Source: Branchiostoma lanceolatum (Eukaryota > Chordata > Leptocardii > Amphioxiformes > Branchiostomatidae). From it: DNA of 64,000 nt. Made by a program: the position numbers and the translations under genes. The notes under the pieces are model-generated. The model saw only the letters and a list, made by a program, of their open reading frames with translations. It did not search any database and was not told where the DNA came from. Where the stretch lies: NCBI RefSeq assembly GCF_035083965.1, contig NC_089724.1, forward strand, positions 33,546,722-33,610,721. Reading direction: 5' to 3'. Positions 4,593 to 57,050 of this stretch are shown piece after piece (position 1 is the first letter of the stretch; each line of letters starts with the position of its first letter).

Positions 4593-5460
4593 AACTAGAG
4601 TTCCACGACCTCATACCTTCGCCAAATGATTTTAACCTTTATGACTGACGTATCAGGAGTGTTTCTGATCAAATATAAATCATACCAGTTGATCTTCTTC
4701 ACCCAAAAAACAAAAGTCACATAACTTCCAAATGACACAAGTATGAAATTGCCATCATTTACCTGTATGGAATTATAGTAGTTTCTGATTAATTATGCAA
4801 ATTAGGCCTACATTTGCATATTTTTAATCTATCAAAATTCCTCAGTATCAAATGTCACATATTTGAATAGACATATCATGGAACATGGCGGGTTTTTAAA
4901 ATTGTCTCATTGATTATGCAAATTAGAATCTGATTTGCATAATTATCGTCCAGTCATACAAAGCATCACTGCACGTAAGCTATCTACATACCAAAAATCA
5001 TTACCATCCATCAAGCCCATCTTGAGTTATAGTATTTTCTCATTAATTATGCAAATGAGGTCTTCATTTGCATAATTGATATCTATTAATATTTCTCTCC
5101 TCCTCAGTTACATATGTCACATGTTTGAGAGTCCTATCGTGGAATTTGGCGGATGTATAAATTTTCCTCATTAATTATGCAAATTAGATACTGATTTGCA
5201 TAATAAGTATCTAATCATGTACATCATCGCTCAAGCTATCTACTTACCAAAAATCATAACCATCCGTCTTCATTTGCATAGTTCATATCAATTAATATTT
5301 CTCTCTTCCTCACTTACATATGTCACATGTTTCAGAGTCCTATCATGGAATTTGGCGGATGCATAAACTTTCCTCATTTATTATGCAAATTAGATACTGA
5401 TTTGCATGAAAAGTATCTAATCATGTTCATCATCACTCAAGCTATCTACTTACCAAAAAT
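4593..5460 (+). repeat. Dispersed octamer-rich repeat, copy 1 (truncated at its 3' end)
   Basis: Starts with AACTAGAGTTCCACGACCTC and CATACCTTCGCCAAATGATT, nearly identical to the copy at 28.58 kb. Inside, a module of roughly 170-200 bp recurs three times, each with TTAATTATGCAAAT followed by ATTTGCATAA. It stops after ATCTACTTACCAAAAAT, where the complete copy continues, about 40 bases before the splice acceptor of the lectin exon. About eleven ATGCAAAT/ATTTGCAT octamers occur in the copy. Confidence 0.8.
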
Positions 5461-5497
5461 TACTTACTTACTCTGTTTGTGTCAAACCTTTTTCCAG

Positions 5498-6084
5498 CAT
5501 CTAAATGTCCTAATGGTTACAAAATGTGGCAAGGAATCTACTACAAAGCCTTCAACACAGAGAAGACCTTCAGCGAAGCGGCCGCAGCCTGTCGTGAAGA
5601 CGGCGGCACCCTCGCCATGCCCCGAGGCTTCTTGACCAACGCTTTCCTGATCTTCTTGTACAAATCCGTGAACTACGGCTCGCACTTCTGGTTCGGCCTG
5701 CACGATCAGCGCAAAGAGGGAAGCTTCGAGTGGGTGGATGGATCTGCACTTGGGACGTACAACTACTGGGGTCCAAAACAACCGAACAACTATGGTGGCT
5801 ACCAAGATTGCGTTCATTACCGGTACCACACAAATATGTTCGAGAAAGACAAGTGGAACGACGCATCATGCCACAAGTCGTATCCCTTCCTATGCCAGGC
5901 TGTTCCAGGTAGATATTGTAACCGCACCCTTTCCTGAAACCTTTCCATCTAGTAAACATGTCACAGTTTATGTTTACACATTAGACCATCATATTGTTGC
6001 TCTTCTTATATATGAAACATATCATTCCATATCTCATCCTTGCTACTTCGAATTCTGCTCCATTCTTTTCCAGGACGCCCATAG
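5498..6084 (+). CDS. C-type lectin domain protein, last two coding exons
   Basis: The main exon (5498-5908) follows a strong acceptor (ACCTTTTTCCAG) in phase 1 and encodes a full C-type lectin-like domain. Visible marks are CPNGYKMW at the start, AACREDGGTLAMP, FWFGLHDQ, the WVDGS strand, QPNNYGG with DCVH, WNDASC, and the closing YPFLCQ. The four core cysteines that form two disulfides are present (ACRED, DCVH, ASCHK, LCQ). QPN replaces the canonical EPN/QPD sugar-selectivity triplet, and the WND calcium motif is kept, so calcium-dependent glycan binding is plausible. After CCAG|GTAGAT at 5908 the last exon starts at 6074 (TTTTCCAG) and adds only GRP before TAG at 6082-6084. The cysteine expected in the opening long-form hairpin (ICYK) reads IYYK. 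Upstream exons, including the signal peptide, were not found. Likely secreted; immune or mucosal recognition is inferred from the family. Confidence 0.85.
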
Positions 6085-37526: not shown

Positions 37527-38017
37527 CCTGCATGCCCTTTTCCGTTAAGCCTTATGCGCTATTTCAATTCACCGTTAATCGTAGCCGGCCCGCTCTAATT
37601 CAACGTTAAACGTTATTGATATATTAATCATGAAGCTTTACTAGTCGTTTACATTCTACATAACGAGGGTCAAGATTTCAGAATTTTCTGGGGGAGCATG
37701 CCCCCAGGACCCCCTAGTATTATCACGCTTTCGGTGCCTGTCATCGTGATCATGAATATTTCGTCCCACCATTACGAAATTTCCTGTCGCCGCCTCTGAA
37801 TTTAAAGGGTTCGTAGCAAGCATGCCAGGTCTCATGCCACAAGATCAGGGCGACTAGCTATAGTGGCAATCAACCGTCATCTTCAGGGGTATCTCATGTT
37901 CTAAATCTCCTGAATTTATCGTTAAGCGTTGTCGGCCTGCCTTAATTTACCATTAAGCATTGTTGGCTGGCCTGAATTTACCATTAAGCGTTGTCAGCCC
38001 CCCCCTCCCATGCAGGC
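37527..38017. mobile_element. GC-rich repeat with CCTGCATG ends, copy 1
   Basis: The left end is GAGGGCCTGCATGCCC; the right end is CCATGCAGGCAAAAAATGG, an inverted match. It carries tandem copies of a TTTACCATTAAGCGTTGTC unit of about 31 bp and the block GAGGGTCAAGATTTCAGAAT. The same blocks occur in the opposite orientation at 47.08-47.65 kb. Confidence 0.6.
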
Positions 38018-38372: not shown

Positions 38373-39455
38373 TGCGTCACGTTTGGTGCTTTGTCACGTT
38401 TGGTGCCTAGGCACGGTTTGTGACAGTGCCCGCGTGTCACAAACCGTGCCTGGGACAAAAGCACGGTTTGTGACACTCGGACACCGTCACGAATGGTGCC
38501 CAACCGAGCACAGTTCGTGACACACAGGGGGTCTTATCCCATACTGTGCTTTTGGGCGGAGCTTAGTGTTTTGAGGGGGAGGAGTCTGCCTAACGCGTTT
38601 TTTTCCCTGCAGCCCGCCATCTTTGTTTTTTTCGGGGCGCTGGGATGAGAAAGAATCAGCGTAATTCTCGCAAATTGAAATACATTTCGCGCTTGTCTTG
38701 GATGATTTGGACTTAGAGTTGATGTGGCACAAACAGACGGACGTCTCATCGCGAATTTCTACAACAGAAATCCGTCCCGAACCCTGCCATTCACGACTGT
38801 GTCCTGAGGCACGGTTCGTGACAGTGCCGGAGTGTCACAAACCGTGCTTTTGCCCCAGGCACGGTTTGTGACACTCGGGCACTGTCACAAACTGTGCCCA
38901 GGCACGGATTGTGACAGTGCCTGAGTGTCACAAACCGTGCCTGGGGCAAAAGCACAGTTTGTGACACTCCGGCACTGTCACGAACCGTGCCTGGACAGTG
39001 CCCGGGGCTACAACTTCCCGTAGCATTGATTTAGATCGGGCGAGCTGACTGCCTCAGGACGTCGAAGTAATCGGCAAGTGGCCCGATCCTAGTCTAGATC
39101 TGGTTTCCCTGGATAGAATATATTTAGTCTTACAAATTGTTTTTTTTTTAGCATCTGTTATAGACACTGTCTTTTTGTGCCACTTCAATTCTAGGTCTAA
39201 GTTATTCAATTATTTTACAGAGCGAGAATTACGCTGTTCCTCCTTATCCCAGCACCCCGAAAAACAAAGATGACGGGGGGTGGGGGGACTGCGGTAAACA
39301 AAAACACGCTGCCTTCTATGGAAACGCGGGCATCACTGCCCCGTCAGTCACAGTGATTGACAGCACTTCCGGGCACAGTCTGTGACGGTCGGGCTGTGTC
39401 ACGTTCTGTGCCTGGGAAAGCATAGAACGTGACAGGCATGGTGTGTGACGGTACA
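38373..39455. mobile_element. 1083-bp foldback element, copy 1
   Basis: The ends are inverted around CGTCAC (left TGCGTCACGTTTGGTGC; right GTGTGTGACGGTACA). GAAGCTAT at 38365-38372 and GAAGCCTC at 39456-39463 look like a diverged 8-bp target duplication. The arms contain many inverted CACGGTTTGTGACA units and a longer inverted block (GCCATCTTTGTTTTTTTCGG against CCCCGAAAAACAAAGATGAC). No protein is encoded; an 8-bp duplication suggests hAT-like mobilisation. Confidence 0.85.
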
Positions 39456-41413
39456 GAAGCCTCAAAACTACATTCGACTACCTCACGCTATATATTGACA
39501 GTATTTCGATGTACTGCGGGCACCTTTAACTGTCATTACTTGGAGTTTTGTGTGATTTAAAGTGCTGTAAAGTGTAATATGCGTGAAAAGACAAAAGACA
39601 TGAAAATTGAACAGGACACTGTCATCATTTCTCTTTTTCCTTTTGGCAGTTCTTAGAGGGGTACATCGGTAGCATATTAGTTACGTTAGTAACTTCGGAT
39701 CTTCAGAACGAACTAGATCATGAGAATATTTGACATAAACCGCCCAAAAAAACAATAATACAACGACCCAACAAAGCACATGACACATGCGAAGTTGTCA
39801 AGAAAACATGAAGTCAATTCCCGTCCAAATGCCACGGTACAACTTTAAACAGTCCTGTAGTACAAAGTAAAACATTTTACAAACTTGCGTTATTTACTGT
39901 CACTGTTTATAATCAATCTTATAAATCTGTTACTTTTCGTCTTTTAGTTAGCGGACGTCTACAACTACCCTAGTAAGCCTAGTATCATGTTACGAGCCTT
40001 TTACTTCCATGTGTATTATCGTCTTTCTGGAGTACGAATATATAGGTTTTCTGGCCAATGCAACTTCTTAAACAGTCTCTCCTTCTATTGCATGCATAAT
40101 CAATGAGGAAAAGAATACCTTGTCTACTGTCACATGCGACGAGAAGCAACGACAATCCTTGGGAACCTTCACCATAGCCTGGAATCCATACCCTCGGTGC
40201 CTCCCCGATATCTCTACGGCACTGTGAGTGACCCTCACCCGCCCAGACAGCTTAGCCCGCTCGGGGTGTTGTTTACGGCCTTGGATTAATTAGTTCGGCA
40301 CCGACGGTATGGTCGGATATAATAGAAAATCCTCTCGATTTATGGCCCTCCCAGCGCCGGGTGTCTAGCGGTCTGACAGCGCGATTGGACATGGGCGCTG
40401 CCCACGGCGGCGAATCAGGATCTGTTTGTGTAGGATAATTGGCTAGCGGAACATGTCAGTTGATTAAACCTCCTTGGTTGCATCACGTACTCAGTAGCAA
40501 TGTCCTCTTTTGTGTTGACCAGGGATCAATCTATACCTTGTTTAGAAGCACAAGTAAATACCAAAGGTTGTTGTTCCCAATTCTCCAATCCATACAAACT
40601 GAAATATCGTGATAATCAAGATCTTGCTCGGCCGCCCGAAAATCTCACGGGTATTGTTGTTGTACTGCCTGGGTCACGTTTCTGATAGCGACATGTTGTC
40701 CTTTCACGCTAATTTCCAGAGTGACAGCCATGAGATCAGAGGGGCATTGGGGACCCAGTATAGCTCAGATTTTAAGCTAGTTTAGCGACAAGAGAGCCTT
40801 AGAAACAATGTTTTCTGCAGCCTTGTGGTGCGCGCGAGCGTCGCTCGTCTCAGATGGCGGCCATGTTAGATATGGTAATGAGCAGGGGGACCGAACAGCT
40901 GAAAACGCGCGCCAACCTGGCGCGCCAATCAGAGCTCAGCGGAATAATTAGATCAGTCTGCTCTGTTCCCATTGGGCGCATCAATCTCATGCGCCTGGAA
41001 TCAGGCCCGTATTGACACCCTGCCAGTCTCTAGGGGCTGCGAAAAAGTAGGAAGGCAGCGGAGTAGGGTGTAGCGGAAGTAGGATGGCAGCCAGAGGTAG
41101 AAAGGCCATCAGAAACTGACTGGCCCGGTAAACCACCACTAAGCCGACCCTAGAGACTGGGACCAGGCTACCTTCACCACGGATCCTACGTTTTCGCGGT
41201 TCCGGGACATTGTGTTTCGCGTTAAGGTTCCGGGTCGGAGTTCAAATAGACCGATCCCGGCTGTCAATCAAACTTAGCGATTCAGCCAATAACAGAACAG
41301 GATTTGGTCACGTGATCATGAGCGGGCGTGGCCGCCATTTTGTCCGTCAACTTTCGACTGTACTTTATTGCTCCAGAGAGCACTGTACTGCAAGCGCCCG
41401 GGAAAACGTGAAT
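39456..41413. other. Non-coding stretch upstream of the THAP gene
   Basis: GC-rich around 40.2-41.2 kb, with GCGCGCGAGCGTCGCTCG and GATGGCGGCCATGTTAG near 40.83-40.87 kb, a CpG-rich, promoter-like composition. It includes the small MITE at 41023-41161. The true left end of the transposon-like locus could be in here but was not recognised. Confidence 0.4.
41023..41161. mobile_element. Small MITE with CCAGTCTCTAGGG ends
   Basis: Left CCAGTCTCTAGGGGCTG and right GACCCTAGAGACTGG are inverted. The internal GTAGGATGGCAGCC resembles the hairpin MITE at 47.43 kb, so both may be related. Confidence 0.6.
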
Positions 41414-44064
41414 ATGGTCAAAATCTGTGCCTATGGCACATGTAATTCTGACTCCAGATACCCGGAACGTGTGTCTGGAGTTCAGTTTCACCCTTTTCCA
41501 AAACCGAAAACCAAACTCAAGGCCTGTCTTCGATGGATACGAGCCTGCGGAAGACCCCACTCACAACTGAACGCCTCGAAGGTGATTACGTTCGTCTGCT
41601 CCAAGGTGAGACTAATTAAAAATACACGGGCTTTTATAAGGTCCATTATATTGGGGACAAATAGACAAAACCACGTACGTTCAGTATTTAGGGAAGGGTA
41701 TTTCAAAGGGCATGAAAACAAGGACCGGTACTAGTAAGTTCTAGTAGTTCTACAACAGACAATATGGTGGTGGGAGGGGGGCGAATAACGCGTTGCACTG
41801 TTTTATTTAACTTTTAAGCATCAGAAAATCAGGGTCCGTACAGTTTGGGGAATATTCTGTACTCCTCCGTCCCGTCGTATGGTGTTCCTGTTCGTGTCTT
41901 TTCCCTTTTTAAAGAATTGTTTAAAAAGTAGTGAAATGTTTTCGTACTCATCTCCAAACAGCACTTCAAAGAAGGTCGACCGACCGAGCGTTTCCCTGAC
42001 CCCATGCCAGCAGACGGCAGTGCCGTGACTCCCACGAGGCCATACCTGCACAGGACCCCTCACACACCCCACTGAAAAGTAAAATTGGTAAGATGTCACC
42101 ATGTACTTACACTGTACTGTAGCTGTGGATTAAATAAAAATCAGATACACCATACGGCAAATATCTTCAGGTTTTCCTTTGCATTTTTTGCAGTCTACTG
42201 TATCATAAGTCATGTTGGCACATTGAATATACAAATTATGCTCATGCAGTTTGATATAAGGAATGGATCATACATTTGCATTTAAATGTAAGTGTAAACA
42301 AGTTTACACACATCTATTTACTAGGAGCATCAAGGGTCACAATGCCTTTCCTCCAACATTCAATATAGTGTAACGTTACATACCTTATTATTATAATTGA
42401 ATGAATGGCTCAAAATTACTTTCTTTGACGAGGCACGACTTGGCCACGTCTGACCAAGTAGGTTAAGTTCTGACTGTACAGTGTAACAGTTGCCACAGTT
42501 TAAAGATATGACTTTCACAGAAATGCTGCTTACCAATACCATAACTAAAGCTTGACAAACAGTTACATGTATAATTATTGTACAAGTATTTTGTCATTTC
42601 AGCAAAAAGAAGATCAGACTCTCCCCTCCCCATAACAAAGAGACTCCGAGCACTAGTAGTAGTACTGATGACACCTCATTCTTACAGGAAACACCCCAGG
42701 AAGCAAGTACTAGTAAGTGAAACACATTTTTGTTTTTTTACATTTTCCTAAGCACTACCTTGATACTAATATGATACATGCGGTATGCATTATGCTTATA
42801 GATTCAGACTTAGCAAACATTTTAGTCGTTATGGGATTTTTTCTGCATCCTGCGCTGAATGAAGGGCTTGGCATGACTTTGGTAGAACTGTGCCAGTTTG
42901 ACCAACATGTCCTGGCAGAATTGAACATCAGGGTAAATCCGTTCGACATGGGTATCTACACAATAGCACACAAAATCACAGAAAGGTGCTCCTGTCACCA
43001 TCAACTGCCCTTGCACCTGGAAATAATATTCATGCGTCTTATCCAATGTATAAGACTCCCCTTCTGCACTGAGGTAGAAGTTGGGGAGGGTCAGCACGGC
43101 ATCCTTGACAGTCAGATTCCTAGCGCTATATGGGCACTTGACCTCAAGGATGCCGGTCTGACCCCCACAACACACCTTGGCATCAGGTGATGCCCCCAGG
43201 AAAGAAAACGCAGGGTTAACAACGAGACCACAGTCATGAAGGTGTACTTTACCACCACTCGAGTGGAGATATTCCTCTTTGGCGTTTATCTCATTCTTCT
43301 TACCATGTGTAAGCGAGTCGCTTTTGGCTGACTTGTTTCCCATCAAGTTTGTCAGAAACTTAAGATTACACTCTTTCTTTCTGTTTAGAATTTTACCAAA
43401 GTTTGAAGCGGTTATTCGATTTTGCCGCTCTGCAAACCAAAGCTGGCATTCGGATTGCTGCACTGTTGCCCTCTCCAGGGCAACAGCTTCCTCTTTTGTC
43501 ACACTGAACATACTGTTGCAGTCGGAAAACCGACTAGGGAGAGCCCACTGCTGTGTGGGCTTCGGAAATGTCGTGTCACTGCATGGCACAACAGTGGGCT
43601 TCTGGACCTTGGGTGGGGGACACTTCAGCTGTAAGATGCAAAGAAAGGCAATCGTAGATAAGAAATATGAGTCAGTGCTAATAATGCATTGTTTCTTTTC
43701 AGCATCTTCAACACTGGCTCAAAAGTCGCTTGACAACATTAAACTTCAAGAGGAAAATGAGAAACTCAAGCAGCAACTAGCTTCCCTGCAGTTGGAACAG
43801 CTGCAGAAACAACAGCGGACTACTCAGCGGACTACTCAGCCCACACAGAGTTCCTTTAGTGTTGATGCCATTGTTCAATCTCCCATCAAAAACTTGTTGG
43901 AATATTATACTGGATTTAACTTGGCCACTTTCCTTCTGTTGTTTTCTTTTCTTGTCCCAAATAAGTCTGTAAACCCTATAGTGTACCTTGAGAAGAAATC
44001 TACTTGTATGTTGTTGCCATTGAAGGACCAATTGCTTTTAGGACCAATTGCGTTTATTTGGTAG
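41414..44064 (+). pseudogene. THAP domain transposase-like gene, truncated before the DDE domain
   Basis: Exon 1 (41414-41605) encodes MVKICAYGTCNSD..., the CxxxxC start of a THAP C2CH DNA-binding finger, ending ...CSK at a GTGAGA donor. Exon 2 (41962 to about 42041) opens HFKEGRPTERFPDPMPADG, supplying the final Cys-x-x-His pair in phase with exon 1. Exon 3 (42603-42712) is a basic, Ser/Thr-rich linker (KKKIRLSPPHNKE). Exon 4 (43703-44064) has a coiled coil (LQEENEKLKQQL) and SPIKNLLEYYTGF..FLLLFSFLVPNKS, the helix-turn-helix region that precedes the DDE domain in THAP transposases of ISL2EU/Harbinger-like elements. Phases match from 3 to 4. At the expected end of exon 2 the donor reads AT instead of GT. 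The frame stops soon after LPLKDQLLLG, and no DDE exon follows. Binding of transposon ends would be its ancestral role; today it looks like a relic. Confidence 0.7.
42822..43628 (-). CDS. YqaJ-type nuclease exon (terminal exon of the SWIM-YqaJ gene)
   Basis: An 807-nt terminal exon, entered in phase 0 after ATCTTACAG, 268 codons plus TAA. It carries the full YqaJ/lambda-exonuclease-like set: RITASNFGKIL (about residues 71-81), HGKKNEINAKEEY with the catalytic Glu near 113, FLGASPDA with the Asp near 149, ILEVKCPY with the Glu-x-Lys pair near 162 and 164, and FQVQGQLMVTG. This metal-dependent nuclease fold processes DNA ends. In ISL2EU DNA transposons a YqaJ protein is the second gene beside the transposase. 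No stop, gap or missing active residue is visible, in contrast to the THAP gene. It lies antisense within the THAP gene's intron between exons 3 and 4. Confidence 0.85.
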   Translation of the reverse strand: MKCPPPKVQKPTVVPCSDTTFPKPTQQWALPSRFSDCNSMFSVTKEEAVALERATVQQSECQLWFAERQNRITASNFGKILNRKKECNLKFLTNLMGNKSAKSDSLTHGKKNEINAKEEYLHSSGGKVHLHDCGLVVNPAFSFLGASPDAKVCCGGQTGILEVKCPYSARNLTVKDAVLTLPNFYLSAEGESYTLDKTHEYYFQVQGQLMVTGAPFCDFVCYCVDTHVERIYPDVQFCQDMLVKLAQFYQSHAKPFIQRRMQKKSHND

Positions 44065-44583
44065 TATCAATGAGACATACTTTGTTTTTTCTGATATAGT
44101 TTATTTTCTGACATGTAAGTTAGAGAGATACCTAATCATACATCTGGTCTTTGCATTGCAACAGAGAAGCCGTGTTTGACATTTATACACAGATCAATAG
44201 TAGTTAAAGTAAAAATGAAAGTAGCATATCCAGGTCATTTTAGGTGACTCAGTATTTAGCTGATTTCAGCTGTGTAATTTAATTCTTAAGATTTTGACTA
44301 TTGTTGCAGTGAAGCTGTGTATTTTGCATGACTACATTGTGTGCATTGCTCTTTGGCAGCGAATTCCAATTTTTTGTATCTGATATATGAACAGATTACT
44401 ACCAAGTGAAATGTCTAGATTTTGATCACTTGATCTCTTATGGAAAACATTTAAGGTAAGATGCATGTCTTTATTGAAATATCTCAGTGTTACTACATGT
44501 ACAAGAAAAAAGTAGAATAACCAATACAGTGTGTGCTGTTTTGTGAAACCATTACTGAAACCTTTTTTCTTCTTCATAATTAC

Positions 44584-44819
44584 CTGGTAGAACAGGGATG
44601 AGCACCTCTGTACCTTGCCCTTTGTGGTGTCTACTACCATACAGTCCTCACTTATGAGATAGCTAAGTGGAGTGTTGGGCTTGCTCTTAAGGTGGCCAAT
44701 GTCATCCTTGGTGGGTGGGAAAATACTGTGGAAAAAGGAGACTGTACATCTTCTGTTTTCTAAGTACTTGTATTGCCACTTTGTAATGTCAACTGTCTTC
44801 AACCCTTGTCCAGTGATTT
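44584..44819 (-). CDS. Middle exon of the SWIM-YqaJ gene
   Basis: Open minus-strand frame from about 44819 (acceptor AAATAAG, phase 1) to 44584, ending CAG|GTAATT in phase 0, which joins in phase to the YqaJ exon at 43628. It reads ITGQGLKTVDITKWQYKYLE, then FFHSIFPPTKDDIGHLKSKP and GKVQRCSSLFYQ. I do not recognise a domain. The phase does not fit directly onto the SWIM exon (which ends in phase 2), so an exon is missing, the acceptor is wrong, or there is a lesion here. Confidence 0.6.
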
Positions 44820-45147
44820 CTTATTTGCAATAAACTTGAGGTTGAACTAAAATAACTTTGTAGCAACTGATACAAACTTCAAGCTACAAACTAATGATTT
44901 TTAGAGGAATCAGATATGTCTCATCAGATAGAAAGGAGGCATGTTCAAGATATAAAAGACAACACAACAAGTGTTATTTGTATAACAAATTTTAATTGAA
45001 CTTCCTTCAACAAGTTGAGTCTCTGCAGCATGTCATGTTGTTTTGTCAAGGCTATTTGTCAATCGTCCATTTTTAGTTGAATCAAGTGCATCTTTAGTCT
45101 TGCAGAAAAACAGAATTTTCAATCGCCCATCCCAGAACCTGGGTTAC

Positions 45148-45381
45148 CTTTGTGATGTTGGTTTGTGGGAAACTGGTTTCCTCTTTCTTTTGACTTTTGT
45201 TGGCTTTGCCAGTACCATAGATGTTACCGCATCTGGCTTTATCTTCTTGTCCCTGGGCTTGTGCCACTGCTGTGGCAAGCTGGTGGCACTTGGCTGGGTA
45301 GGGACTTCCACTAGCCCTTGTTGTTGATAATGGGCCAGTGTATACACGAGAGCTATCAAATGTGCGCAGGTGCCTGACAGT
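45148..45381 (-). CDS. SWIM zinc-finger C-terminal exon of the SWIM-YqaJ gene
   Basis: Entered in phase 2 after CCAATGTTTCAG. It reads LSGTCAHLIALVYTLAHY, the C-x-H half of a SWIM finger, then VEVPTQPSATSLPQQWHKPR and a lysine/arginine-rich tail (KPTKVKRKRKP), ending CACAAAG|GTAACC. SWIM fingers (CxC...CxH) precede YqaJ in many animal transposon-derived proteins. The matching CxC exon should lie further upstream on the minus strand, and I could not find it. The 1083-bp element (copy 2) is inserted only 27 bases upstream of this exon's acceptor, which could disturb its splicing. Confidence 0.7.
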
Positions 45382-45408
45382 CTGAAACATTGGATCAGTG
45401 GGAGTTGT

Positions 45409-46491
45409 CGCGTCACGTTTGGTGCTTTGTCACGTTTGATGCCTAGGCACGGTTTGTGACAGTGCCCGTGTGTCACAAACCGTGCCTGGGAGAAAAGCAC
45501 GGTTTGTGACACTCGGACACCGTCACGAATGGTGCCCAACCGAGCACGGTTCGTGACACACAGGGGGTCTTATCCCATACTGTGCTTTTGGGCGGAGCTT
45601 AGTGTTTTGAGGGGGAGGAGTCTGTCCAACGCGTTTTTTCCCTGCAGCCCGCCATCTTTGTTTTTTTTTCGGGGCGCTGGGATGAGAAATAATCAGCGTA
45701 ATTCTCGCTCATTGAAATACATTTCGCGCTTGTCTTGGATGATTTGGACTTAGAGTTGATGTGGCACAAACAGACGGACGTCTCATCACGAATTTCTACA
45801 ACAGAAATCCGTCCCGAACCCTTCCATTCACGACTGTGTCCTGAGGCACGGTTCGTGACAGTGCCGGAGTGTCACAAACCGTGCTTTTGCCCCAGGCACG
45901 GTTTGTGACACTCGAGCACTGTCACAAACTCTGCCCAGGCACGGATTGTGACAGTGCCTGAGTGTCACAAACCGTGCCTGGGGCAAAAGCACAGCTTGTG
46001 ACACTCCGGCACTGTCACGAACCGTGCCTGGACAGTGCCCGGGGCTACAACTTCCCGTAGCATTGATTTAGATCGGGCGAGCTGACTGCCTCGGGACGTC
46101 GAAGTAATCGGCAAGTGGCCCGATCCTAGTCTAGATCTGGTTTCCCTGGATAGAATATATTTAGTCGTTCAAATTGTTTTTTTTAGCATCTGTTATAGAC
46201 ACTGTCTTTTTGTGCCACTTCGATTCTAGGTCTAAGTTATTCAATTATTTTACAGAGCGAGAATTACGCTGTTCCTCCTTAACTCAGCGCCCCAAAAAAC
46301 AAAGATGACGGGGGGTGGGGGGCTACTGCGGTAAACAAAAACACGCTGCCTTATATGGAAACGCGGGCATCACGTCCCGTCAGTCACAGTGATTGACAGC
46401 ACTTCCGGGCACAGTCTGTGACGGTCGGGCTGTGTCACGTTCTGTGCCTGGGAAAGCATCGTCTGTGACAGGCATCGTCTGTGACGGTATA
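45409..46491. mobile_element. 1083-bp foldback element, copy 2
   Basis: Same length and orientation as copy 1 and nearly identical by eye. Flanked by a perfect 8-bp duplication GGAGTTGT (45401-45408; 46492-46499). The different target sequences show that the two copies are independent insertions. Confidence 0.9.
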
Positions 46492-47079
46492 GGAGTTGTA
46501 AATCTCAGCATTCAGGCATTACATCAGTCATTTTAGATAGATCACTCTCTCTTCATGTAGGTTCGTTAGAAGAGTTAGTATATTTGAACACGGAGGTCAT
46601 AACCTCTTTAATTTGAAGAAATATCTGTACTTTAGAAATGAGGCATGTACATAAAGATTTAGGACAACTCAACAACGTGTTGAAAAGAGTTGAATGTCGG
46701 CAGTGTGTCATGTTGTTTTGTAATGGCGCTTCTGCATGCATGTAACTGACGCGTCTGGATCAAACTAAGAACGAATTCGATAGTTTAATGTATCAAAGTA
46801 AATGGTGTTTTTTATTTCACTTCAGTTTGAACTCAACCTAAAGACTTCTTTGTCTTGAGTTCTCTGAATAGCGCTATAACGTTAGTGTGAACGTTTCTTT
46901 CAAACTATCGATTGCCCCCCTCCCTACGTTTGCCCGAACTGTATTTTGACCCAACCGGCCGTGGATGTTTTTCTATTTTTCTCTCCATATATGTAGCTGC
47001 CAGGTACGCAACAAGGGCAACGAAACCTCAGTCACAAAAATACGTACCCCACTACACAAGTGCAATTGGAGCTTGTTAT

Positions 47080-47660
47080 GAGGGTCTGCATGGGGGGGTC
47101 CTGGCAACGCTTAACGGTAAATTCAGGCCAGCCGATAACGCTTAACGGTAAATTCAGGCCGGCCGATAACGCTTAACGGTAAATTCAGCATTTTTAGAAC
47201 ATGAGATACCACAGAATACAACGTTTTTTTTGCCACTAGTCGTCCTGATCTTGTGGCAAGAGACCTATTACGCTATGCCATTCTGGCACGCCTGCTCCAA
47301 ACCCTTTAAATTCGGCGGCGACAGGAAATTTCATGATCACGATGACGAGCGCCAAAGGCGCGACGAAAATTTTGAAATCTTGACCCTCTGAAACGCTATT
47401 TCTTGCATTCTAAGGCAGGCCCGGCATGCTAGCCTGGGTGCCATCCTATTTCTACCGGGGCTCCTACACTCGCTACCCTAAAAATTTTTTTTAGGGTAGC
47501 GAGTGTAGGAGCCCCGGTAGAAATAGGATGGCACCCAGGCTACGGCATGCACCCGGGAAAATTTTGAAATCTTGAACCGCGAAACGCTTAATTTCCTGAA
47601 TTTTGAGGCGAAAACTTTGCTAGTACAGTGATAAATAAAAGTGTTTCAGCTTAAGATTTT
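47080..47660. mobile_element. GC-rich repeat with CTGCATG end, copy 2 (inverted relative to copy 1)
   Basis: Starts ATGAGGGTCTGCATGGGG and has three tandem units of GATAACGCTTAACGGTAAAT plus TCAGGCCGGCC, then TTGTGGCAAGAG and GAAATCTTGACCCTC. All match the 37.5-38.0 kb copy in reverse orientation. It is interrupted by the hairpin MITE at 47430. Confidence 0.6.
47430..47542. mobile_element. 113-bp hairpin MITE with perfect 8-bp duplication
   Basis: A near-perfect palindrome from TAGCCTGGGTGCCATCC to GGATGGCACCCAGGCTA, arms of about 54 bases around an A/T-rich turn. CGGCATGC flanks both sides (47422-47429; 47543-47550). Confidence 0.95.
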
Positions 47661-54437: not shown

Positions 54438-57050
54438 ATGGACACGGACAACCAAACATGGGAAGAATTTGTTGTCTCATACTTCTCTGGTAAGCCCAAA
54501 GACTTTTTTAATATAGATTTAATGCATTTCCTTTTCTAGTGCATACATGTATGTACAAGGGACGTCCTTGATAGAAATCTAAACGTCGTCTACTTACGAC
54601 TGTATTAAACAAGTACAGGGCGTTGGAAACTTGGAATTGAAGCATTCATTTTACATCATTCTTGATCATAAGTACAGAGTATCAACATTCGATTTGATAT
54701 TGATATTATGGATAAATAGAATGTTTTTGTCCTTAACACATTTTAGACAACGATGACGATGACGCGAGACAAATCATCCACCAGTGCAGTACCAGCCCAA
54801 TCACTAGGTGTCTCCTTCAAAACAAAGTCTTCTGGGGACCACTCTGTGAATTCCGACACATCTGCCAACCTCCCACCATCACTTCATTTGTAAAATATTG
54901 TATAGACTTTGGCCCGGAATACATGTTTTCCTTAGAAATCGATAGAAAGGACTTCTACGAATTTCTGGCCACAGCTCTGGCGTCACTTCCTGGAATCGCC
55001 GACGTCATTTCCTATTGTGACCTTCAATATGGCGCCCAAATTTCCGAGGAAGAATGCAAAGGAGAATCCCCTGAACATCATATATTGAACATGGACGACG
55101 AACACTTGACGGACTGTGAAATCAAAGCGTTTTGTCAACTATTTCCGTACATGAAACACTTGAAAACATTGGTGCTGTCTTGCAGCGACTTCTCGCCAGA
55201 GGGCGCTTTACACTTGGCCCGAAACCTTGCGTTTCTCACAAGTTTGGAAGAACTAGATCTGACGGAAAATAAGATCGGAGATGACGGTTTCGCTAATATC
55301 ATTCCGCATATTCGCCACATCTATAACTTCGAAGTAGCAGATAGTGTTGTGAGTTTGAATCCAGGGCTTCAGCTTAGTAGTCAAAATGCGTGTATTCCAA
55401 GCTTCTCTCTCAAGTTGAACTGCACCAGGTTGTCTGACGTCGGAATGGCCGAGCTGACGGTACATGCGCGCTCCTTGCGACATGTGACGGAACTGGATCT
55501 GGGTAGAAACAGAATCGGTGACGATGGCGCAGCCGCGTTGGCAAACAGTTTCTGCCACCTGTCTCGACTGAGAGTTCTGATACTGTACATTAACAACATC
55601 AGTAGTAACGGTGCCGTCGCGCTTTCAATGGGCTTGAGGTACCAAAAAAAGTCTCACAAAATCCACGCGTTCTAAATTTGTAATTGTATAAACCATAGCC
55701 TCTGTAATGTTTAACCAATTAGTTATTGCATGCTTATCAAAAGTAGTAGGCACACTAGTATCCCTTAGCAAACACACTGTTACTTTCTTCATTACCTTCA
55801 TGCCAGCGTAGGTATTGTTTTTGGTCTATGTGTTGGTTTGTTTTGGTGTGTGTCCGCAGTTAGGTTTTTTTTAAAGCTGTTAATCTAGTAGATAAGTATC
55901 AACTAAGCAAACCTGTTGGGTGTTACCTCTACAGATTTTTGCAGTATCTACGGGTTCTTAGTCTCGGAGCCAACAATATTGGTCACAGAGGAGTGACAGA
56001 GCTGGCTCGTCAGTTTGTACATATCTATAATCTAGAGGTTTTGAAGTTGGGCCACACAGGGATGACGCACAAAGGTATCACAGCATTCATTGAATGATTC
56101 GTATTTTTATGTTTCAAACCTGTAGTTATCTGCTAATTTGTTCTAGTTATTTGGTACCATGGTTTCTTTTCGTACATATGCCGATACAAAAGAATTGAAC
56201 CTATATATTTAGGACCACCCGCAAGCCTTCATCAAGCAATTAATTCACCCCTTCTGTAGCGTCAACTAAATATGCAAATTACGGACACGTGACTCAATGA
56301 GCAGTGTAGCAGGTAGTTTGTGGCGCCCTCCGTCTATTTTCAGAGACTTTTGTAGGCCCCTGACGTATGTTGCTTCTTTTACGCTTACGGCTTACAAATA
56401 TGTAATATTTTTTTGCCCAAGGTGAATTTCTCCTCCAATTTCAATTGAATATTTCAAAATCTATTCCAAAACCAGTGTATTTATTATGTTTTATATCAGG
56501 TGTAATCGCCATTGCTGCGCAAGTTCACCACATACCTCGCTTAAAACAGCTCGACCTCGGGAAGAACAGGATCGGTGACATCGGTGTCAGAGCTTTGACC
56601 GAGGTCTTCCCGAGCCTCAGACACCTTCAAGACCTCTTTCTATGGGACTGCGGCATCACCTCCTCTGGCGCAGAAGACATCACGAATCGTATGCCGCATC
56701 TTCGACAACTCCGAGAGCTCCAACTTGCACACAACGATATCACATTGGACAGTCTGCAACTGTTAGTGTCAGGGTTTCTCTCTACTCCCTGGCTTTCCAA
56801 AGTTGATCTGCGCGGGGTTCGAGCGTCCGAACTTGGCACACAAGCAGAAGGGATGTTTCACAGCTTTGTAGAGAGTTTAGAGGGATCAGTGGGCTTGTAC
56901 AGTTGGTATGGACGTCATGAGGACGAGTTGAGGTGGGGAACTGAAGATGAGGACTCAAACTACAGGAGATATCGTTTAGGGAGTGGAAACAACACGAAGA
57001 TTGTTACTGATAGACTGAGTATTTTGTTCAGCGCACGACTGGAGGATTAG
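54438..57050 (+). CDS. Leucine-rich repeat protein, RNase-inhibitor type, 4 coding exons
   Basis: Exons 54438-54489, 54747-55638, 55935-56074 and 56500-57050 join in phase (1, 2, 1) to 1635 nt: 544 codons plus stop. The ATG follows an acceptor, so a 5'UTR exon exists. Residues 1-150 form a helical, Cys-containing region (FVKYCIDFGPEYMFSLEID) with no NACHT Walker motif. From about residue 153 come roughly nine ribonuclease-inhibitor-type LRRs of 26-29 residues: LEELDLTENKIGDDGF, VTELDLGRNRIGDDGA, LRVLSLGANNIGHRGV, LKQLDLGKNRIGDIGV and others. This solenoid resembles the LRR block of NLR receptors, and the N-terminal part may be a leftover of the region after a NACHT module. There is no signal peptide, so it is probably cytosolic. 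A ligand-sensing or adaptor role in innate immunity is inferred from the family. AATAAA follows at 57311. Confidence 0.85.

Follow-up and report, generated by a model that had tools for sequence, protein, structure and literature searches.

The window analysed here, the whole stretch of 64,000 nucleotides, very probably contains a decayed ISL2EU-type DNA transposon (Harbinger-like, PHIS superfamily), in which a THAP-bearing transposase gene and a YqaJ nuclease gene share the region from 41.4 to 45.4 kb. The THAP and YqaJ domains are both present, the two genes have interleaved exons, the nuclease frame is open across three exons and the transposase frame is broken. Judged by this coding content, a THAP gene and a YqaJ gene forming one interleaved pair in agreement with the published description, the ISL2EU-type reading is well supported, and the locus is a fresh example of a sort of transposon that has already been described. 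We file the copy as an ISL2EU-like remnant and not as a full member because its transposase frame is cut off ahead of the DDE/HTH part. The first-pass annotation had proposed the same type of transposon. The interleaved coding pair upholds that proposal, whereas a DDE domain was not found and no TIR/TSD pair stood out, so that the assignment to ISL2EU is not sealed.

Arrangement of the two genes

The two genes had been described as lying side by side, which our exon models correct. The exon borders of both genes are predictions that we made from the sequence. In these models the YqaJ exon lies inside the plus-strand intron 42713-43702, and transposase exon 4 lies inside the minus-strand nuclease intron between 44584 and 43628. 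Each gene houses one exon within an intron of the other on the opposite strand, with GT-AG borders.

Table 1. Predicted exons of the two genes and copies of the neighbouring 1083-bp element (positions in the window)
Feature	Position	Strand	Remarks
Transposase exon 1	41414-41605	+	N-terminal part of THAP finger, ends CSK at GT donor GTGAGAC; PF05485 E=1.1e-6
Transposase exon 2	41962-42087	+	End of THAP finger (HFKEGR...); in-frame stop 42073-42075
Transposase exon 3	42603-42712	+	Its open frame continues into exon 4
Transposase exon 4	43703-44064	+	Coiled coil, NLLEYYTGF region; stop shortly past PLKDQLLL
Nuclease upstream exon	45148-45373	-	Second half of SWIM finger (CAH, by eye) and TSLPQQWHKPR segment
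Nuclease middle exon	44584-44725	-	Linker; AG acceptor, GT donor, open frame
Nuclease last exon	42822-43628	-	YqaJ domain; PF09588, PF01771, 3syy alignment
1083-bp non-autonomous transposon	45409-46491		Flanked by GGAGTTGT at 45401-45408 and 46492-46499
Second 1083-bp copy	38373-39455		Same orientation; flanks GAAGCTAT / GAAGCCTC

The transposase gene is broken

The THAP finger named in the first-pass annotation was confirmed by Pfam. Exon 1 alone scored 29.7 bits against PF05485 (cut-off 23.9), and when it was joined to the start of exon 2 the match reached E=5.8e-11 (43.4 bits). A PDB search with the THAP exon returned nothing significant (best E=0.6). The coiled coil and LLEYYTGF segment that had been pointed out are likewise present at 43703-44063, the latter as NLLEYYTGF, and this segment matched no Pfam family above its cut-off.

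The claim that the transposase half is broken also stands. Exon 2 meets its stop when read in the frame of the THAP finger, and inspection showed that its other open frame also fails to join the frame common to exons 3 and 4. In exon 4 a 16-bp tandem duplication (44024-44056) is followed by a stop. PLKDQLLL, just ahead of that stop, is what we take to be the start point of the HTH/DDE part in transposases of this kind, and the missing part of the protein would be the DDE domain. An HMM search for such a domain had been proposed, and it gave no match on the plus strand from 36.0 to 56.2 kb: no DDE or HTH family of Pfam was detected in the three frames of 36.0-46.0 kb and 43.9-56.2 kb, translated with stops read as X, and no DDE domain was detected in three trimmed read-throughs covering roughly 44.0-44.6 kb. 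The read-through scan recovered the THAP exon at E=1.6e-4, just under the cut-off, as well as LRR repeats, which shows that the method functions, if at somewhat reduced sensitivity. A badly decayed DDE domain could escape it. The catalytic domain is either absent from this copy or decayed past recognition.

The nuclease frame is open across three exons

The three minus-strand exons join with AG acceptors and GT donors to give 390 open codons up to the stop; the upstream exon has an alternative acceptor 8 bp further upstream. The 298-aa frame that contains the last exon (43718-42822) matched PF09588 (E=3.2e-18) and PF01771, the viral alkaline exonuclease family (E=2.1e-12), and the spliced model matched PF09588 with E=1.9e-18. 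A phmmer comparison aligned the YqaJ frame with the solved exonuclease 3syy (E=2.1e-9), in agreement with the earlier identification of a YqaJ nuclease. The stretches around GKKNE, ASPD, EVK and QVQGQ, which presumably hold the catalytic residues of YqaJ, line up with 3syy. Structure prediction of the YqaJ exon by AlphaFold without an alignment yielded a poor model (mean pLDDT 35.3).

The SWIM half finger of the first-pass annotation was seen by eye only, as the CAH half in the upstream exon, and this reading leans on what we take to be the look of intact SWIM-YqaJ proteins. Pfam found no SWIM match in the spliced nuclease model, as expected when only the second half of the finger is there. 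Inspection of 46.5-49.5 kb by eye revealed neither an exon coding for the first finger half nor one carrying a start. Scanning 46.5-64.0 kb for a CxC-plus-donor pattern gave eight rows from five open stretches, none of them convincing by eye, and when 46-58 kb was translated in its three minus-strand frames, Pfam gave nothing beyond a weak hit to DUF3712 (E=0.11). The nuclease half had been said to look intact, and this holds for the YqaJ domain and the three open exons, but in the regions scanned neither a start nor the other half of the finger turned up.

Matches among phage and plasmid records were remote. They comprised 56 phage records, all below 60% identity, and two plasmid records; among the best 20 of the 56 phage matches, most were annotated as exonuclease, recombinase or hypothetical. 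In viral_contigs, five pattern matches to the YqaJ exon and eight to nuclease exons a and b were obtained, and in genome_contigs four to the 390-aa nuclease model, none of which was confirmed; neither collection consists of animal genomes. Since no relative turned up in these non-animal collections, they provide no second copy that would show mobility. Neither Rfam nor tRNA scanning gave a hit in the window.

A probable neighbouring insertion and the possible retention of the nuclease

The 1083-bp element at 45409-46491 is probably an unrelated non-autonomous transposon that entered the nuclease gene at a later time. A gap of 35 bp separates it from the SWIM half exon, so that it begins 36 bp upstream of the exon, probably within the intron that precedes it. 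The two 1083-bp copies are palindrome-rich; 32 substitutions over 1079 aligned sites and 5 indels set them apart. Their 8-bp flanking duplications agree at all eight positions for the copy beside the nuclease gene and at six of eight for the copy at 38373-39455. The element beside the nuclease gene is bracketed by short direct repeats (44929-45052 and 46633-46727) that are about 80-89% identical. Elsewhere in the window we observed LRR stretches on the plus strand at 54737-57050 (PF13516, E=2.1e-19 and 9.3e-9) and a C-type lectin stretch at 5410-5937 (PF00059, E=3.6e-22).

The first-pass annotation had raised the possibility that the nuclease is being kept for a host function. According to this explanation the transposase is dead, and the SWIM-YqaJ gene has been retained within the dead transposon and is expressed by the host from an unrecognised upstream exon, as a domesticated ISL2EU nuclease. 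We regard this as unlikely; it is compatible with the locus being a decayed ISL2EU element, and the confidence given to each need not total one. The explanation draws on the contrast between 390 codons open over three exons and a broken transposase, and on an estimate of neutral decay in which the neutral rate was taken as half of the divergence and indel rate of the two 1083-bp copies. Under this rate 0.68 stops and 2.7 frameshifts are expected in the 1173-nt nuclease frame, and the probability of finding none is 0.033 for an age of half the copies' divergence, falls to 0.001 when that age is doubled, and lies below 0.001 for d=0.05. Because the nuclease gene should predate the adjacent insertion, the estimate leans towards retention. 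Its assumptions are rough, however, and three reservations weigh heavily: the indel rate comes from 5 indels between two palindrome-rich copies, the copies may have diverged before the insertion took place, and we chose the test with the open frame already known. Moreover, if lesions are placed at random over both genes, the probability that all of them hit the plus-strand gene is 0.06 for three lesions and 0.15 for two, and the start and first SWIM half of the supposed host gene were not found. Neutral-decay probabilities of about 0.03 or less, obtained under rough assumptions, and the lesion asymmetry lend the suggestion of a host function weak support. The open nuclease frame is no more than a hint of retention, and as the support is a rough neutral estimate, host co-option stays a rival of low probability. 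Among the titles and abstract openings searched, there was no paper on a domesticated ISL2EU nuclease.

Search for the element ends

ISL2EU elements are described as having TIRs of 6-259 bp that usually start with GG, a mean length of about 4840 bp and an AT target duplication within A-AT-T (PMC4482050). TIRs with short duplications had been suggested as a check on the ground outside the two genes, and no ISL2EU-type TIR/TSD pair rose above chance there. When AT flanks were required, comparison of 39.5-41.4 kb with 45.4-56.0 kb gave three pairs with at least 11 of 14 matches, none of them starting with GG, and five control regions of the window gave 7 to 14 such pairs. A wider scan of 33.0-41.4 kb with 45.4-60.0 kb that required both GG and AT flanks gave one 11/14 pair, with 0 to 2 pairs in each of 20 mononucleotide shuffles. 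None of 136 exact-seed inverted pairs carried AT on both flanks.

One inverted repeat (37776-38015 and 47086-47332, 77% identical over 259 columns) flanks both genes in TIR orientation. We did not accept it as the element ends, as it has a 31-bp minisatellite inside and no terminal motif or duplication was seen. Two smaller structures were noted in the surrounding sequence. A short inverted pair, CCAGTCTCTAGGG and CCCTAGAGACTGG, about 140 bp apart at 41024-41161, was seen by eye and is possibly a small MITE, and a near-perfect palindrome at 47424-47550 is 94.6% self-complementary over 129 columns.

That no shared TIR pair was found would fit two unrelated insertions, with a YqaJ element landing inside a THAP gene. 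Exons that interleave in both directions with GT-AG borders argue against such an origin, as does the pairing of THAP with YqaJ, which is the signature of ISL2EU in the published accounts as far as covered, and we consider two unrelated insertions highly improbable. Equally improbable in our view is a different group of THAP-bearing transposons that happens to carry a YqaJ gene. The domain that would decide the group, the catalytic one, was not found, which leaves some room for this explanation, but the passages available to us assign YqaJ to ISL2EU as its second gene, and in PIF/Harbinger and Nuwa that gene is Myb/SANT. We infer instead that both genes arrived in one insertion, that of an ISL2EU-type element.

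In the intact ancestor of this ISL2EU-like remnant, the interleaved genes of the two strands would each have encoded a protein. One, a THAP-HTH-DDE transposase, would have bound and cut the element ends. The SWIM-YqaJ protein would have been a nuclease of the lambda/alkaline exonuclease type with a role in transposition, probably trimming the ends or helping to repair them.

Comparison with known systems

The coding capacity of the locus is that of published ISL2EU elements, whose transposase has DDE, HTH and THAP parts and whose second ORF encodes YqaJ (PMC4482050); two ORFs are likewise described in PMC9179366. The published elements share with our locus a THAP-bearing transposase gene paired with a YqaJ exonuclease gene. 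The present copy differs in that no DDE domain, ends or AT target duplication were found. It also has interleaved exons, whereas the published accounts, in the parts covered, are silent on the usual arrangement. ISL2EU elements are sparsely documented, the survey in PMC4482050 having listed 25 families from 14 animal species. With respect to amphioxus the sources disagree. The analysis in PMC9179366 itself detected no ISL2EU in amphioxus, and the paper says that the earlier survey (PMC4482050) had indicated these elements there, whereas the passages covered of PMC4482050 name amphioxus for another group, NuwaII, only. If the window is from a lancelet, our locus bears on this disagreement. YqaJ genes have been reported among transposon-related genes in scallops (PMC10225492), and the present locus offers a concrete case for asking why ISL2EU elements carry an exonuclease. 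Its nuclease resembles the YqaJ/lambda-type exonucleases (3syy) and PF01771 proteins in its PF09588 match and in the aligned motif stretches, and differs from them in being encoded by a spliced gene with a linker and, as recognised by eye, the second half of a SWIM finger.
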